NCBI GenBank assembly: GCA_030695565.1
Contig: JAUYRZ010000074.1
Coordinates: 124,001-188,000 of the forward strand
From: Archangium sp.
GTDB lineage: Bacteria > Myxococcota > Myxococcia > Myxococcales > Myxococcaceae
DNA: 64,000 nt
Reading direction: 5' to 3'
Position numbers and translations under genes: made by a program. Within the stretch, counting starts at the first letter, position 1. Each line of letters starts with the position of its first letter. The notes under the pieces were generated by a model, which ran no database searches, had not been told where the DNA came from, and saw nothing but the letters and a program-made list of their open reading frames with translations. Positions 48,515-56,072 of the stretch are shown here, in pieces.

Positions 48515-49126
48515 ATGTACCGCTTCATCCTCCTGTTCGCGCTCGTGGGCTGCGCCGCTCCTCAAGCGCACGGCACGTTGAGCAGCCGAACCCTCGAGGC
48601 CGCGGGTGATCCACTCTGCAGCCACCGCGTGCCTGAGAAGGCGTGCGTCCTGCACCACCCTGAGCTGACCGCCGAGTTCAAGCGCCTGGGCGACTGGTGC
48701 GAGGAACACAGCGTGCCCGAGTCGCAGTGTCTCATCTGCCACCCCGACCTCACCTTCGACGCGCTGCCCACCCTGCCTGAGAGCGCCGACTTGAAGTGGC
48801 TCGCGCGCGAAGGAGAAGCGGTGGGCGACCTGGTGCCGCTCGCGGTGAAGGGCAAGGTGACGGTGTTCGACTTCTACGCCGACTGGTGCGCGCCCTGCCG
48901 CAAGGTCGACCTCTACATGTACGGCGTGTTGTCGCGCCGCACCGACGTGGCCCTGCGCAAGTTGAACGTCATCTCCTGGGAGACGCCGCTGGCCCGCGAG
49001 CAGCTCAAAGACGCCGCGACGCTGCCGCACTTGATCGTGGTCGGCCGCGATGGGCGGGTGATCAAGCGCATGAGCGGTCTCGATCTTCCTGCGCTCGAAG
49101 CGGCCATCGCCGAGGGCGGCTCATGA
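48515..49126 (+). CDS. Thioredoxin-like lipoprotein with Cys-rich metal-binding-like segment
   Basis: 203 aa. Lipobox ALVGC (Cys13). Residues about 35-77 hold C35, C44, C62, C72 and C75 in a pattern (DPLCSHRVPEKAC...GDWCEEHSVPESQCLICHPDL) that resembles the N-terminal segment of adaptor subunits of heavy-metal RND pumps. The thioredoxin fold follows (VTVFDFYADWCAPCRKVDLYMYGVL, active site C125/C128; cis-Pro in ATLPHLIVVG). It is probably a periplasmic thiol reductant. The stop overlaps the start of the TGA-containing OMP gene by 4 bp (ATGA), so the two are coupled. Confidence 0.88.
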   Translation: MYRFILLFALVGCAAPQAHGTLSSRTLEAAGDPLCSHRVPEKACVLHHPELTAEFKRLGDWCEEHSVPESQCLICHPDLTFDALPTLPESADLKWLAREGEAVGDLVPLAVKGKVTVFDFYADWCAPCRKVDLYMYGVLSRRTDVALRKLNVISWETPLAREQLKDAATLPHLIVVGRDGRVIKRMSGLDLPALEAAIAEGGS

Positions 49127-50142
49127 AGCGCTGGCTGCTCCTCTTCGCACTCACCCTCGGCTTCATTCCGCGTCTCGCGGACGCCTGAGCGGGCTGAAGC
49201 AATCCCAACCTCCCGGTCGGGGGGTCTGCCACCACCGAGCTGAAACGCGGCACGCTCCTCATCGGAGCGCGGCTGATGGGCACCACCGTGCGCGTGCAGC
49301 ACGGCATCGCCTGCCCTGACATCGGGCCGGTGTGCGCGCAGCGGGATGAGCCGCCCCAACATCACGATCAACGGTTCTGGATCGCCGAGCTGCGGCTGCA
49401 GGCCGAGTACGCGGTGACGGACTGGCTGGGCGTGGAGCTCCAGTTTCCACTCCGCTCGAGCAGCACCTCGATCACCTACCGCGACCTCGACGGCAACGCC
49501 TTCGTGCCTGATCAACCCGACATCCATCATCGCAACGAGACGTTGTTCGGGGCGGGCGACCCCTGGCTCTCGGCGCGTCTCCGCCAACGTTTCGGCGCCT
49601 TCTCGTTCTCGGGCCGCCTGGGCCTCACGGTGCCGTTGGGCCGCACCGAAGAGAATCCCTTCGCAGCGGGCCGGGCGGGCTTCGAACACCAGCACGTGCA
49701 GTTCGGCACCGGCACCGTCGACCCGCTGCTCGGGCTCGAGGCCGCCCATGCCTGGGAGCGGGTCACGGCGCGTCTCTACGGCCAGGCGCAGCTCTCCCTC
49801 TACCAAAGTGCGAAGTCGTTCCAGGCGGGCTCGCGTTTCGGCGGAGGCGTTGCGGTCGACTTCCAGCTGATCCCCTCGCTGCAGGTGGGCGTGACGGCGG
49901 AGACCCTCACGGAGCTGCCCGAGCGCTGGGACGGCGTGGTGGAGCAGGACGGAAACGTGGGCCGCACCGACGTGTTGTTGGGTCTGGCGGGCGCGTGGAC
50001 CGTCGCCGGATCCACCCTTACGCTCTCGCTGCGTGTGCCGGTGTACCAACACTTCATCGTCACCAGCAGCGACGGCGGCCAACTGAAATACCCCGGCATC
50101 GTTCAGCTCGCCTTCCAGCGGCCCTTCGAGCTGCTCCACTGA
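49123..50142 (+). CDS. Candidate UxxU selenoprotein: outer-membrane beta-barrel protein with two in-frame TGA codons
   Basis: ATG at 49123 opens a perfect signal peptide (MKRWLLLFALTLGFIPRLADA), then in the same frame come TGA (49186-49188), Ala-Gly, TGA (49195-49197), SNPNLPVGGSATTELKRGT and a complete barrel to 50142. Codons 22 and 25 sit where a secreted protein of this kind would have CxxC after the signal cleavage site, and each needs only TGC to TGA. A hairpin with a GGTC loop follows at 49208-49225. Residues after 60 show strand patterns (YAVTDWLGVELQFPLRSSST, FSGRLGLTVPLGRT, LYGQAQLSLYQS). Reading both TGA as selenocysteine gives 339 aa. Otherwise a 21-residue leader and an OMP started at 49276 without a signal would result. 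Inference: selenocysteine; needs sel genes elsewhere. Confidence 0.72.
49208..49225 (+). promoter_or_regulatory. SECIS-like hairpin after the in-frame TGA codons
   Basis: ACCTCCC (49208-49214) pairs with GGGGGGT (49219-49225) over 7 bp (one G-U) around a GGTC tetraloop (49215-49218). The loop starts 17 nt after the second TGA and 26 nt after the first. From memory, the E. coli fdhF SECIS also has a GGUC loop, 18 nt after its UGA, with a bulged U in the stem that is not evident here. Confidence 0.65.
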
Positions 50143-50199: not shown

Positions 50200-50532
50200 G
50201 TGCGCACCCCGTTCACAGCGTTGAAATCAACCGGCCTGCGCTGGCTGGCGGTGCTGCTGTTGTGTGTGGCCGCGCCCTCGGTGCAAGACATCATCGCCGA
50301 CGTCGCCAACTGGACCGACGGCGATTGTTGCTCCGATGAATGTGAAGAGTCGGGCGCTCCTTGTACGCAGCAGTGCATGCATTGCGTCTGCGGCCCGCGG
50401 GTGGTGGCCGCCACATCGCAGTCGTTCATCATGCTTTTGCCCAAGTTCCAGGTGAGCACGGGCACCACCCGCACGCTCGAGTTGCAGTTGAGCGGCCACC
50501 GCGATCCCCCGTTCCGGCCTCCCGTGAGCTGA
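50200..50532 (+). CDS. Small Cys-rich secreted protein of the metal cluster
   Basis: 110 aa from GTG at 50200. The signal is likely TGLRWLAVLLLCVAAPSV. A segment of about 30 residues holds CC, C, C, C and CMHCVCG (GDCCSDECEESGAPCTQQC then MHCVCGPRVV), eight Cys and one His, a likely metal- or metalloid-binding site. The tail is unremarkable. Its position between the candidate selenoprotein and the efflux pump suggests a periplasmic metal chaperone or scavenger. Function unproven. Confidence 0.72.
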   Translation: MRTPFTALKSTGLRWLAVLLLCVAAPSVQDIIADVANWTDGDCCSDECEESGAPCTQQCMHCVCGPRVVAATSQSFIMLLPKFQVSTGTTRTLELQLSGHRDPPFRPPVS

Positions 50533-50577: not shown

Positions 50578-51825
50578 ATGATTTCACTCGTCCCGCGGGG
50601 AATGCCCTCGCGCCTGTTGTGCGTCACCCTTCTTTCTCACGTCGCCGCCGCCGAGCTCGACTGCGCCACCATCACGCGCGGAAACCTCGTCGCCTGCGCT
50701 CAGGCAAACAGCCCTCTGCTCGCCGCCGAGCTGGCCTCGTCACGCGCCGCGGAAGGCCGAAAGGAAGCCGCGCGGCCTTTCCTGCCCACGAACCCGGTGG
50801 TCTCCGGCAGCCTCGCTTCTCGCACGGGCGCTGACGCACGCGCGACGAACTGGTCGGTCACCCTCGCGCAGGAGCTGGAGCTCGCAGGTCAGAGCGGCGT
50901 GCGGGTCGCCTCGGCCGACCAGGAGCTCGAGGCCCAGCGTCAGCAGGTCGAAGTGGCGAAGGCGGCGATCGCCGAACAGGTGTGGCTCGCCTGGTTCGAG
51001 GCGCTCGCGGCGAAAGAACGCGCCGAGCTGGCGGTGCGCATCGAGCAGGCGACGCAGTTGGTCGCCACGACCGTGCAGGGCATGACCTCGCATGGACTGG
51101 CTTCCCCCATCGACGCAGCCGTGGCCGACGCCGCTTCTGTCCGCGCGTCCCGGGCCCGGCTCGAAGCGGCGCGTGATGCGAGCTCGGGTGAAGTGCGTCT
51201 CCGCTCGTTGCTCGGTGCACCTTCACGCCTCGAGGTCGCGGGCCCACTGGAGCCGCTGCGTTCGATTGACGACGTGGCCACCGAGCGCCCCGAAGTGCGC
51301 ACGCTGGAATCGCAGAAGCAGGCCTCGGCCGGCCGCCTCGAGGTGCTGCGCCGCAGCCGGGTGCCCAACGCCACCGTCTCACTCTTCGCGCAGAACGATG
51401 GTTTCGACGAACGGGTGTTCGGCGTGGGCCTGGGCATCCCCATTCCCCTGCCGCAGCCGCTGGGCCGCACCCGGGCCGGTGAAGTCGCCGAGGCGATCGG
51501 CGTGCAGGCGCGGCTCGACCACGAGCTGACGCAGCTCAACCGCACGCTCACCAGCGACCGCGAGCTGGCGAAGGCCGCGTGGGAGAGCGCCGCGCAGACC
51601 CGCGCGCTCTATTCAGGGGAGCGGCTGGAGCGCGCCCGTCAGGGGCTCACCGCCATCTCCGAACAACTCGCCGCGGCCCGCGTGCCGGTGCGCGATGCGC
51701 TCCATTACCAGCAGGTGCTGGTCGAGCTGCTGCAGGCCGACGTCGACGCTCGCTACGCGTTGTGTGTGGCCTCGGTGCGCCTGGTGCGCGCCCGGGGTGG
51801 TTCACTCGAAGGAGGTGCCTTGTGA
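50578..51825 (+). CDS. czcC: CzcC/TolC-type outer-membrane efflux protein
   Basis: 415 aa. The signal peptide is around MPSRLLCVTLLSHVAAA. The outer membrane factor (OEP) repeats are visible as long helices (VTLAQELELAGQSGVRVASADQELEAQRQQVEVAKAAIAEQVWLAWF; SDRELAKAAWESAAQTRALYSGERLERARQGLTAISEQLAAARVPV), including the RTRAGEVAEAIGVQARLDHEL turn. It forms the outer-membrane channel of the tripartite metal efflux pump with the next two genes; the adaptor start overlaps its stop by 4 bp. Confidence 0.9.
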   Translation: MISLVPRGMPSRLLCVTLLSHVAAAELDCATITRGNLVACAQANSPLLAAELASSRAAEGRKEAARPFLPTNPVVSGSLASRTGADARATNWSVTLAQELELAGQSGVRVASADQELEAQRQQVEVAKAAIAEQVWLAWFEALAAKERAELAVRIEQATQLVATTVQGMTSHGLASPIDAAVADAASVRASRARLEAARDASSGEVRLRSLLGAPSRLEVAGPLEPLRSIDDVATERPEVRTLESQKQASAGRLEVLRRSRVPNATVSLFAQNDGFDERVFGVGLGIPIPLPQPLGRTRAGEVAEAIGVQARLDHELTQLNRTLTSDRELAKAAWESAAQTRALYSGERLERARQGLTAISEQLAAARVPVRDALHYQQVLVELLQADVDARYALCVASVRLVRARGGSLEGGAL

Positions 51826-52976
51826 GGTGGTTGCCGTTGGTGCTGGCGCTGGGATGTTCGTGCCCGAAGAGCGAGCCCGCGGAACCGCCGAAAGAAGAAG
51901 CGCACGGTCACGATGATGGCCACGAGGCGCTGCCTCAACACCTGAAGCTCTCGGCCGAAGACATCACGCGCGCGGGCATTCGCACGGCTCCAGTGAAGCG
52001 GGTGGCGCTGGCCTCGACGGTGGTGCTCACCGGTGAGGTGGTGGCTCAGCCCGATCGCAGCGCGAAGCTCTCGTCTGCTTCTCCGGGCCGGCTGGAGCAG
52101 GTGAGCTTCAACGAAGGCACCCTGGTGAAGCGGGGTGACGTGATGGCCACGGTGCGCGTGCCCGACGTGGGCCGGTTGCGGGGCGCCTTCGCGGCCGCCA
52201 ACTCCCGGGCGAAGGCGGCGCGTGCGAACGCCGAACGTTTCATCGCGCTCAAGAGCAGCGGGCTGGGTTCAGACCAGGCGCTGCTCGACGCAGAAGCCGA
52301 CGCGCGGGCGCAGGAAGCAGAAGCCCGTGCGCTGGGGGAACAGCTGGCGGCCATCGGCGTGAACGCAGACTCAGGCTCGGGTTTCCTGGTCGCCTTGCGC
52401 GCGCCGCTCACCGGCGTGGTGGTGATGCGCGACGCGGTGGTGGGGCAGCCCATCAACGCCGAGCACGTGCTGGCCGACATCGTCGACCTCTCCGAGGTCT
52501 GGTTCCTCGGGCGGGTGTTCGAGAAGGACCTGGCCAAGCTGCGAGTCGGCGCGAAGGCAGAGCTGCAGCTCAACGCCTTCCCCGGCGAACACCTGCACGG
52601 CACCGTCGACTACGTGAGCCAGCAGATCGACCCCGTGGCGCGCACGCTCACCGCGCGCGTGCGCATCGTCAACGAAGGCCTGCGCCTCCGCCTGGGGTTG
52701 TTCGGCCGCGCACACGTCGAGCTGGCCGACGCGAGCACCGCGGCGCCGCAGCTGGTGGTGCCACGCGACGCGCTGGTGGAGATCGGTGAGAAGACGGTGG
52801 TCTTCATCAAGGCGGCCGACGGTGACTTCGTGATGCACGAGGTGCAGCCCGGCGACGCGGCGATGGATGACGTGCAGATCCTCTCGGGCATCAGCGAAGG
52901 CGAAGAGGTGGTGGTCAGCGGCGTCTTCACGCTCAAGAGCCTGCTCCTCAAGGCCACCCTCGCGGAGGACGAGTAG
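51822..52976 (+). CDS. czcB: HlyD/CzcB-type adaptor lipoprotein of an RND pump
   Basis: GTG at 51822 overlaps the czcC stop by 4 bp (GTGA); 384 aa. It begins VRWLPLVLALGC, a lipobox, followed by a His/Asp/Glu-rich stretch (EEAHGHDDGHEALPQH) that could bind metal. The lipoyl/barrel-sandwich motif is VVAQPDRSAKLSSASPGRLEQV with FNEGTLVKRGDVMATV; the hairpin has long Ala-rich helices. The beta-barrel domain (VLADIVDLSEVWFLGRVFEKDL) and the membrane-proximal domain follow. It bridges the RND subunit and the channel. Confidence 0.92.
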   Translation: MRWLPLVLALGCSCPKSEPAEPPKEEAHGHDDGHEALPQHLKLSAEDITRAGIRTAPVKRVALASTVVLTGEVVAQPDRSAKLSSASPGRLEQVSFNEGTLVKRGDVMATVRVPDVGRLRGAFAAANSRAKAARANAERFIALKSSGLGSDQALLDAEADARAQEAEARALGEQLAAIGVNADSGSGFLVALRAPLTGVVVMRDAVVGQPINAEHVLADIVDLSEVWFLGRVFEKDLAKLRVGAKAELQLNAFPGEHLHGTVDYVSQQIDPVARTLTARVRIVNEGLRLRLGLFGRAHVELADASTAAPQLVVPRDALVEIGEKTVVFIKAADGDFVMHEVQPGDAAMDDVQILSGISEGEEVVVSGVFTLKSLLLKATLAEDE

Positions 52977-55900
52977 GTGCTCGCGCTGCTTGCCTCCATC
53001 GTCCGGTGGTCGCTGCACAACCGGGTGACGGTCTTGATGGCCACCGCGATCTTCGTGGCCTTCGGCGTTCATTCCGCCATCACCCTGCCCGTCGACGCGG
53101 TGCCTGACGTCACCAACGTGCAGGTGCAGATCATCACGGCCGCGCCCGCGCTCTCCCCGCTGGAGATCGAGCAGTACGTCACCGTGCCCGTCGAGCGTTC
53201 GATGGCGGGCCTGCCGAAGTCGACCGAGGTGCGCTCCATCAGCAAGTACGGCGTGTCGGTGGTGACCGTCGCCTTCGCGGATGGCACCGACATCTACTGG
53301 GCGCGTCAGCTGGTGAACGAGCGCATGGGCGAAGCGCAAGAGGCGGTCAGCGCGCAGTACGGCAAACCCGCGATGGGCCCCATCACCTCGGCCATCGGAG
53401 AGGTGTACCAATTCGTGCTCCGCAACGAGCAGCTCAGCCAGATGGAGCTCGCAGAACAGCTCGACTGGTACATCGCGCCGCAGCTGCGCATGGTGCCGGG
53501 CATCGTCGAGGTGAACAGCTTCGGCGGTGAGACGCGGCAGTACCAGGTGGTGCTGGAGCCGGGCCGTTTGCAGGCAACGGGCGTCTCCATCGCGCAGGTC
53601 ATCGGGGCGCTGCAGAAGTCGAACGCGAACGCGGGTGGTGGCTACATCGAGCACAACCGCGAACACTTCGTCATCGGCACCGACGGCCTGGTGAAGAGCC
53701 TCGACGACGTGAGGCGCGTGGTGATCGGCGCGACGCCGCAGGGAGTGCCCATCACCGTCGACACCGTGGGCGAGGTTCGTTTCGGCGCGCGGCTGCGGCG
53801 TGGGGCGGCGACCAAGAACGGAGACGGCGAGGTGGTGGTCGGCGTGGTGTTGATGCTGCTGGGAGAGAACGCGCGCGAAGTCACCGAGGCCGTGAAGGAG
53901 AAGCTGAAGGCGCTCGAGCCCACGCTCCCACCGGGCACGCGCATCGAGCCGTTCTACGACCGCGCCGCGATGGTCGATCGCACCATCACCACGGTGGGCA
54001 TCAACCTGCTCGAGGGCGCACTGCTGGTGATGCTGGTGCTCTTCCTGCTGCTGGGTGACTGGCGCGCCGGCGTGGTGGTGGCCGTGACGATTCCCCTGTC
54101 GCTGCTCTTCGCGGTCACCGTGATGAACGCCTTCGGGCTCTCGGGGAACCTGATGAGCCTGGGGGCGATCGACTTCGGGCTGCTGGTGGATGGCGCGGTG
54201 ATCATCGTGGAGAACGCGGTGCGCCGCTTGAGTGAGCGGCAGCAGGCGAGCCCCACGGTGCTCACCGACGAAGAGCGCGCGAGCGTGGTGGAGAGCGCGA
54301 CGCTCGAGGTGCGGGCCGCCAGCGTGTTCGGTGAGGCGATCATCGCCATCGTGTACCTGCCGGTGCTCGCGCTCATCGGTACCGAGGGGAAGCTGTTCAG
54401 ACCGATGGCCACCACCGTGCTGCTCGCGTTGCTGGGCGCCTTCATTCTGTCGATCACCCTGGTGCCAGTGCTCACCAGTCTGCTGGTGAAGCCGTCTCGT
54501 GAGCACGAGGACACCTGGCTGCTGCGCAAAGCCCACGCGCTGTACCGGCCGATGTTCGCCAAGGCGATGCAGCACCGCGTGCTCACGGTCAGCGCGGGCG
54601 TGCTGTCGCTGGTGCTCGCGGTGGTGTTGTTCACGCGGCTGGGTGCGGAGTTCATTCCTCAGCTCGACGAAGGCGATCTGTTGATCGAGGCCCGCCGCCT
54701 CACCGGCGCCGCCTTGTCGGAGTCGGTGCGCACCGATCTGCTGCTCGAGAAGGAGCTGCTGAAGATCCCCGAGGTGGAGCAGGTCATCGCGCGCACCGGC
54801 TCTCCACAGGTGGCGACGGACCCCATGAGCATCGAGGCGTCCGACATCTACATCGAGCTGCGGCCACCGAAGACCTGGCGCCCCGGCGTCTCGAAGACCG
54901 ACTTGTCCGAGCAGGTGGAGGCGGTGCTCGCCCGTTCGCCGGAAGTCGGAGGCGCCATCTCGCAACCGATTGAGATGCGAACCAACGAGTTGATTGCCGG
55001 CATCCGCTCCGACGTGGGCGTGCTGATCTACGGGGGGGATCTCGAGAAGCTCGCGGCCCTCGGCGAACAGACGGCCGCGGCGTTGCGCAAAGTACCCGGC
55101 GCAGTGGACGTGCGCGTCGAACAGGTCGCGGGCCTCGAGTACCTGCGCGTGACGCCCGATCGAAACCGCCTCGCGCGCTACGGCCTCACCATCGAAGACG
55201 TGAACCAGGTGACCGAGACCATCGCGGTCGGTGCACCGGTGGGCCAGGTGCTGGAGGGAGAACGGCGCTTCGGCATCGTGGTGCGCACGGCCCATCACTT
55301 CACGGGCGATCTCGAGGCGCTGCGCTCGTTGCCGCTCCGGTCGATCAGCGGCCAGGTGGTGCCGCTGGGCGACGTGGCCGACCTGCACTTCGTCACCGGC
55401 CCCGCGCAGATCAGCCGCGAGGCCCAGTCACGCCGGCTGACCGTGGAGTTCAACGTGCGCGGGCGGGATCTCCTCTCGGTGGTGCGAGACGCGCAACGTG
55501 CGACGGCCGGGGTGAAGCTGCCGGTGGGCTACCGCGCCGAGTGGGGCGGCCAGTTCAAGCACTACCTCGATGCCCGCGCGCGGCTGGCGGTGGTGGTGCC
55601 GGTCGCGCTCGCGCTCATCCTCTTTCTCTTGTGGCTCACCTTCGGCTCGCTGCGCACCGGCCTGCTCATCTTCTTGAACGTGCCCTTCGCGGTGGTGGGC
55701 GGCGTGGCGGCGCTCGCCTTGCGCGGCATTCCGTTCTCCATCTCGGCAGGCGTCGGCTTCATCGCGCTCTTCGGCGTGGCGGTGCTCAACGGCCTGGTGC
55801 TCATCGCCTTCGCGCGCGACCTCGAAGCGACCGGGGTGGGTCACGCAGAGGCCATCGCGCGCGCGGCAGATGGGCGACTGCGGCCGGTGTTGATGACCGC

Positions 55901-56072
55901 GTTGGTGGCTTCCTTAGGCTTCGTGCCGATGGCGCTCTCCACCGCGCCGGGCTCAGAGGTGCAGCGCCCGCTGGCCACGGTGGTCATCGGTGGGCTCATC
56001 TCGGCCACGCTGCTGACGCTGTTCGTGCTTCCAGTGCTCTACGCCTGGTTCATGCCGAGCCGAAAAGCGTGA
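52977..56072 (+). CDS. czcA: CzcA-type heavy-metal RND efflux transporter
   Basis: 1031 aa from GTG at 52977, directly after the adaptor stop. Twelve membrane helices in two repeats with large periplasmic loops. The fourth helix carries the HME-RND signature GAIDFGLLVDGAVIIVEN, with D399, D405 and E412, equivalent to the proton-relay residues of CzcA. This indicates proton-driven export of divalent cations (Zn, Co, Cd, Ni type) rather than Cu/Ag, but the metal is not certain. It completes a czcC-czcB-czcA tripartite pump beside the thioredoxin-like and candidate selenoprotein genes. Confidence 0.95.
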   Translation: MLALLASIVRWSLHNRVTVLMATAIFVAFGVHSAITLPVDAVPDVTNVQVQIITAAPALSPLEIEQYVTVPVERSMAGLPKSTEVRSISKYGVSVVTVAFADGTDIYWARQLVNERMGEAQEAVSAQYGKPAMGPITSAIGEVYQFVLRNEQLSQMELAEQLDWYIAPQLRMVPGIVEVNSFGGETRQYQVVLEPGRLQATGVSIAQVIGALQKSNANAGGGYIEHNREHFVIGTDGLVKSLDDVRRVVIGATPQGVPITVDTVGEVRFGARLRRGAATKNGDGEVVVGVVLMLLGENAREVTEAVKEKLKALEPTLPPGTRIEPFYDRAAMVDRTITTVGINLLEGALLVMLVLFLLLGDWRAGVVVAVTIPLSLLFAVTVMNAFGLSGNLMSLGAIDFGLLVDGAVIIVENAVRRLSERQQASPTVLTDEERASVVESATLEVRAASVFGEAIIAIVYLPVLALIGTEGKLFRPMATTVLLALLGAFILSITLVPVLTSLLVKPSREHEDTWLLRKAHALYRPMFAKAMQHRVLTVSAGVLSLVLAVVLFTRLGAEFIPQLDEGDLLIEARRLTGAALSESVRTDLLLEKELLKIPEVEQVIARTGSPQVATDPMSIEASDIYIELRPPKTWRPGVSKTDLSEQVEAVLARSPEVGGAISQPIEMRTNELIAGIRSDVGVLIYGGDLEKLAALGEQTAAALRKVPGAVDVRVEQVAGLEYLRVTPDRNRLARYGLTIEDVNQVTETIAVGAPVGQVLEGERRFGIVVRTAHHFTGDLEALRSLPLRSISGQVVPLGDVADLHFVTGPAQISREAQSRRLTVEFNVRGRDLLSVVRDAQRATAGVKLPVGYRAEWGGQFKHYLDARARLAVVVPVALALILFLLWLTFGSLRTGLLIFLNVPFAVVGGVAALALRGIPFSISAGVGFIALFGVAVLNGLVLIAFARDLEATGVGHAEAIARAADGRLRPVLMTALVASLGFVPMALSTAPGSEVQRPLATVVIGGLISATLLTLFVLPVLYAWFMPSRKA

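Follow-up and report, generated by a model that had tools for sequence, protein, structure and literature searches.

The stretch of Archangium sp. DNA analysed here, 64,000 nt in length (the window), contains a gene for a predicted outer-membrane barrel in which two in-frame TGA codons directly follow the signal peptide. A thioredoxin gene lies immediately upstream, and genes for heavy-metal efflux lie downstream. The features are as follows, in window coordinates:

48515-49126, + strand: partner gene, a thioredoxin (WCAPC) lipoprotein with an N-terminal Cys/His-rich domain (Pfam Thioredoxin, 3.8e-6)
49123-50142 (stop included), + strand: predicted double-selenocysteine outer-membrane barrel gene, 339 aa (from translation, homologues and a barrel model)
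49123-49185, + strand: signal peptide MKRWLLLFALTLGFIPRLADA, with a putative signal peptidase I site between ADA and U, judged by eye
49186-49188, + strand: TGA codon 22, predicted selenocysteine (TGA or TGC in 24/24 genes)
49195-49197, + strand: TGA codon 25, predicted selenocysteine (TGA or TGC in 24/24 genes)
49209-49224, + strand: SECIS-type hairpin CCTCCC-GGTC-GGGGGG, loop at 49215-49218 (paired in 18/18 close Sec genes)
50578-56072, + strand: TolC/CusB/CusA-type heavy-metal RND efflux genes (family matches)

Direct translation bore out the original prediction of a start codon, a signal peptide, two TGA codons and a long open frame. The frame opens with ATG at 49123, continues through a 21-residue signal peptide ending in ADA, reaches TGA at codons 22 and 25, and then extends over codons 26-339 (314 sense codons) to a TGA stop at 50140-50142. 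The predicted start of the mature protein is U22-A-G-U25, a UxxU motif, and an AxA-type ending precedes this motif in many close homologues. As had been anticipated of a standard annotation, in a plain ORF list the gene begins only at 49276 and its product has 288 aa. Homology across genomes begins at the signal peptide and is unbroken through both TGA codons; the frame is thus neither a chance open frame nor the product of a sequencing error.

Of the 59 genomes sampled from the family, 13 had homologues of the barrel; across the phylum, 25 of 195 genomes did, one of these homologues being a remnant. A profile search returned the same 24 full-length genes at E <1e-95, with a tier of weak relatives starting at about 1e-11. 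Across these 24 genes from Myxococcota, the window gene included, the two columns read UxxU in 12, CxxU in 9 and CxxC in 3, always as TGA or TGC. With TGA taken as Cys, both columns are invariant, in the context [UC]xx[UC][ST]NPxL, as expected from the earlier proposal that the two TGA codons occupy the place of a CxxC pair behind the signal peptide. Sec is kept more often at the second site (21 genes) than at the first (12 genes). Twenty genes from other assemblies, with identities as low as about 28%, carry TGA in one or both columns, between a signal peptide and SNPxLP, which excludes the assembly error that had been raised as a possible source of these codons. The tree calls for at least four changes among the UU, CU and CC states, and UU occurs on either side of the deepest branch (rooted by midpoint only), making it plausibly the ancestral state. 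A single-sequence scan of a genome contig collection returned one locus, on an Archangiaceae contig that is also the contig of L019; because this sole match comes from an Archangiaceae bacterium, the group is taken as Myxococcota. No relatives were found in the plasmid and viral collections.

In bacteria, Sec insertion depends on a SECIS, a stem-loop with a G at the start of its loop, located roughly 16-37 nt after the UGA. The GGTC loop of the window gene lies 17 nt past the second UGA and 26 nt past the first, in keeping with the prediction of a hairpin at SECIS distance from both codons. A full 6-bp stem with a GGTC loop arises in about 0.9% of synonymous sequences when the protein and local codon usage are held fixed, so that the hairpin in one copy alone is only moderate evidence. 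It becomes strong evidence because it is kept, with covariation, in all 18 close Sec genes: in each, the 6-bp stem is fully paired and a GGTC loop starts 17 nt after the second codon of the pair. The outermost stem pair, formed by two third-codon positions, is C-G in 10 of these genes, T-A in 4 and G-C in 4, and the inner third-codon pair is C-G in 16, T-A in 1 and G-C in 1. In a 12-row alignment, all cells are paired and 9 of them carry changes on both sides, compared with 2.3 in shuffles; none of 500 shuffles gave an equally high covariation score, and the pairing collapsed when the partner was shifted by one to three bases. In all 18 close Sec genes the Val of the loop is encoded by GTC, and in both close Cys/Cys genes (L021 and L024) by GTG, GTG being locally nearly three times commoner than GTC. 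The hairpin is lost in the Cys/Cys genes L021, L024 and L040, and in the distant Sec genes L038, L039 and L041 the stem has moved by one base, with a loop of CGGGT or CGGGC. An Rfam search of 49000-49500 gave chance-level matches only. Since one hairpin lies within reach of both UGAs, the decoding of two neighbouring Sec residues would be explained, and we infer that one SECIS-type element serves both.

The genome from which the window derives was found to contain all four of the sel genes that had been proposed as a check. selA scored 446.6 bits; selB scored above its curated cut-off, with a further piece of that open frame matching the model's C-terminal end; a single tRNA-Sec (selC) scored above the Rfam cut-off and was also called by ARAGORN, with anticodon TCA; and selD is present. 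Elsewhere in this genome, a SelW-like gene carries TGA in a CxxU motif (YCTAUGYL; G000:C112:172987-173193, L098). The formate dehydrogenase matches in this genome lack TGA. Together, the four sel genes and the SelW-like gene make it likely that UGA decoding as Sec is in use here. Among the 21 genomes bearing a Sec form of the barrel, 20 have selA, the sole exception being an 80%-complete assembly. None of the refuting outcomes named in the earlier proposal appeared in the sequence checks made here. From these comparisons, UGA is almost certainly read as Sec at both codons, and the barrels would form a real selenoprotein family.

Weak relatives of the barrel suggest that this trait may reach further. 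L097 (G066) reads CPAUSLPFLPVG at the equivalent place, a single-Sec CxxU form, and its GGTC loop sits on a different stem, CTTCC-GGTC-GGAAG. L094 and L095 have starts of the CxxCxCGDP type. Given these three starts, a wider barrel family may share a Cys pair following the signal peptide, with Sec substituting in some branches. L097 itself probably represents a second, undescribed Sec-containing branch of the barrel superfamily; no thioredoxin motif was found near it in the stretch examined.

The upstream partner matches the thioredoxin profile PF00085 with 27.3 bits (cut-off 23.5) and has the site WCAPC. Its stop overlaps the start of the barrel gene in an ATGA, and the two genes are therefore probably translationally coupled. 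Thioredoxin adjoins or is fused to the barrel gene in 18 of the 20 loci examined; the neighbour search detected none at the distant L061 (on a 3-kb contig) and L062. Four members of one clade (L028, L029, L030 and L036) encode barrel and thioredoxin as a single in-frame fusion, with the thioredoxin at the C-terminal end of the barrel; the structure of the L029 fusion was modelled. No other widely recurring neighbour of the barrel gene was seen among the loci examined. A thioredoxin partnership thus appears highly probable, and at the level of gene sequence the barrel family is a conserved two-gene or fused module with thioredoxin.

The N-terminal part of the partner is also distinctive. In close relatives with a separate partner, this part is Cys/His-rich, with the pattern CxHRVPxxxCxxC[HN]P ... 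WCxxHxVPESQCxxCHP; in the window, the domain (48620-48770) contains the Cys/His-rich repeat CSHRVPEKACVLHHPEL / WCEEHSVPESQCLICHPDL. In the distant relatives L060, L063 and L064, the partner has an HMA-like N-terminal domain with xCxxC instead. Two of these gave Pfam HMA matches of E 0.006-0.007, and NCBIfam matches were to CopZ (1.3e-5) and MerTP (5e-4), all under curated cut-offs, so that the HMA-like assignment rests partly on the visible LxCxxC motif. The Cys/His-rich and HMA-like parts are candidates for two different-looking metal-binding modules at the same position of the partner.

The predicted structure of the barrel has 12 strands (pLDDT 84.5), in agreement with the beta-barrel first read from the sequence. 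No solved relatives were found by sequence. By fold, the best solved match is the COG4313 channel 4rl8 (Z 24.8, rmsd 2.5 A over 246 residues), followed by FapF (5o65; Z 22.6). Like the window protein, the COG4313 or MetA-type channels (Pput2725, 4rl8; PF13557 Phenol_MetA_deg) are 12-strand barrels of similar length with a segment before strand 1, but 4rl8 and the barrel share only 15% identity. The PF13557 profile did not match the window protein and reached E 0.004 in one of the 24 members. The amyloid secretion channel FapF is a similar 12-strand barrel, with 12% identity; we know of no UxxU/CxxC start or thioredoxin partner in FapF. For COG4313, the available part of the structural description mentions no UxxU/CxxC start, invariant histidines or thioredoxin partner (PMC4493636).

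In 4rl8 itself, the first ~14 residues are folded inside the lumen and leave it almost closed (PMC4493636). Because these N-terminal residues occupy the lumen in 4rl8, U22 and U25 would by analogy lie in a lumen-plugging segment, placing the UxxU segment within the barrel; in the model itself, residues 12-24 have pLDDT <50 and residues 11-40 average <60. The invariant residues of the barrel are H60, H81, H136, R137, H189, H191, N278 and R281. Judged by strand order in the model, they seem to lie near the outer strand ends or outer loops, and the histidines may or may not be in reach of the N-terminus.

Taken together, the overall explanation we favour, and regard as very likely, is a double-Sec barrel, for which a selenolate plug maintained by thioredoxin is proposed. 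After cleavage of the signal peptide, the UxxU segment would enter the lumen of the barrel from the periplasm and fold there, like the N-terminal segment of COG4313, and the anchored or fused periplasmic thioredoxin would keep the selenolate pair reduced. The selenolates, perhaps with H60, H81, H136, R137, H189, H191 and R281, could then bind or gate a soft-metal ion or a thiol/metalloid cargo, and the HMA-like or Cys/His-rich N-terminal domain of the partner might receive or deliver that metal. The thioredoxin partner or fusion, often with a metal-binding domain, suggests that soft metals or thiols undergo redox handling at the outer membrane. A role there as a metal/thiol redox-gated channel has, in our estimation, slightly less than an even chance. 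A more specific version is put forward tentatively: the tethered thioredoxin would switch a lumen plug between diselenide and diselenol and thereby load, release or exclude a soft metal or metalloid at the cell surface, with UxxU as the ancestral and commonest state, replaced stepwise by CxxU and CxxC.

The strongest competing explanation, a serious one although we put it below even, accepts a true double-Sec barrel and gives UxxU no metal role: the pair would act as a diselenide/dithiol redox switch or folding aid, crosslinking the plug or a cargo reversibly, and would be driven by the partner thioredoxin. The thioredoxin partnership and fusion, the COG4313-type plug and the CxxC-like spacing of the Cys/Sec pair, a classical redox motif, are all consistent with such a switch. 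However, it has no need for the HMA-like or Cys/His-rich domains of the partner, nor for the several invariant histidines of the barrel.

The remaining alternatives are far less probable than the double-Sec barrel. That Sec/Cys 22 is a lipidation site, giving an acylated lipoprotein anchor rather than a redox or metal ligand, is suggested by the first Cys/Sec, which in most members immediately follows the signal peptide, yet it is improbable: the preceding residues are of the AxA type and lack the usual Leu at -3, and a lipobox offers no explanation for a second Cys/Sec that is equally conserved and is more often Sec. Decoding of UGA outside the Sec system, by general stop read-through or by a suppressor tRNA inserting Cys or Trp, has precedent in other UGA recoding in bacteria, but its likelihood here is negligible, as the sites hold only TGA or TGC, the hairpin occurs only alongside TGA, the full Sec machinery is present, and TGA also serves as the normal stop of the barrel gene. 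Equally negligible is a pseudogene, an assembly error or a shorter gene from 49276 with accidental upstream similarity, a reading invited by the plain ORF start and the two in-frame stops and ruled out by the TGA codons kept in other assemblies, with the covarying hairpin also arguing against it.

Recoding through a SECIS is of a known kind; the novelty lies in the family, in double Sec being its usual form, and in the fusion of thioredoxin to the barrel. The thioredoxin partner with its fusion and metal-binding domains, and the likeness to plug-bearing COG4313 channels, go beyond the earlier proposal. No model in NCBIfam (release 20.0, June 2026) or Pfam covers the barrel. Among the 119 prokaryotic selenoprotein families of a 2026 inventory are two other outer-membrane barrels and a few UxxU families, none of them like this one (PMC13188914). 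The two barrels, the MtrB/PioB-type GSU2204 family (NF041027) and the FCYXU-type TonB-dependent receptor (NF049945), likewise place Sec in an outer-membrane barrel (PMC13188914); however, they have one Sec each and belong to different families, and the window barrel has no match to them in NCBIfam release 20.0. NF041115, a UxxU metal-binding (seleno)protein, has the motif and a metal-binding context in common with the barrel, but it is a 74-position HMA-like model that the barrel does not match; against the HMA-like part of the partner it gave E 0.005 and 0.05, far below the cut-off. Sec also occurs in metal transport, in the SO_0444 family Cu/Zn efflux transporter and in Sec-containing mercuric transport proteins (PMC13188914), yet these are not barrels and lack a sequence match to the window protein. 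An older survey counted 11 selenoproteins in Anaeromyxobacter dehalogenans, none of them outer-membrane (PMC1794560), and a literature search of openly accessible journal papers returned no myxobacterial selenoprotein of this kind.

This locus extends the set of selenoprotein families by one that plain ORF calling cuts short, and it does so in bacteria whose selenoproteins have had little study. A double-Sec motif is the usual state in this family, which is rare. With a thioredoxin fused to an outer-membrane channel, redox control of such a pore can be put directly to the test, and the natural series of UxxU, CxxU and CxxC among relatives raises the question of what each selenium atom buys.

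Downstream of the barrel gene, the RND efflux genes were considered as a CusCBA-type part of the module, and this was rejected: at the loci examined they were not found beside barrel homologues, being neighbours in the genome of the window only, and they probably fall outside the barrel-thioredoxin module. Directly before this TolC/CusB/CusA-type operon, 50200-50532 encodes a small secreted Cys-rich protein (CCSDEC...CTQQCMHCVC), for which no family match was found. Another genome (G143, loci L042 and L092) retains a remnant of the module with an in-frame TAG, in which a deletion seems to have linked the N-terminal portion of the partner with the C-terminal portion of the barrel.
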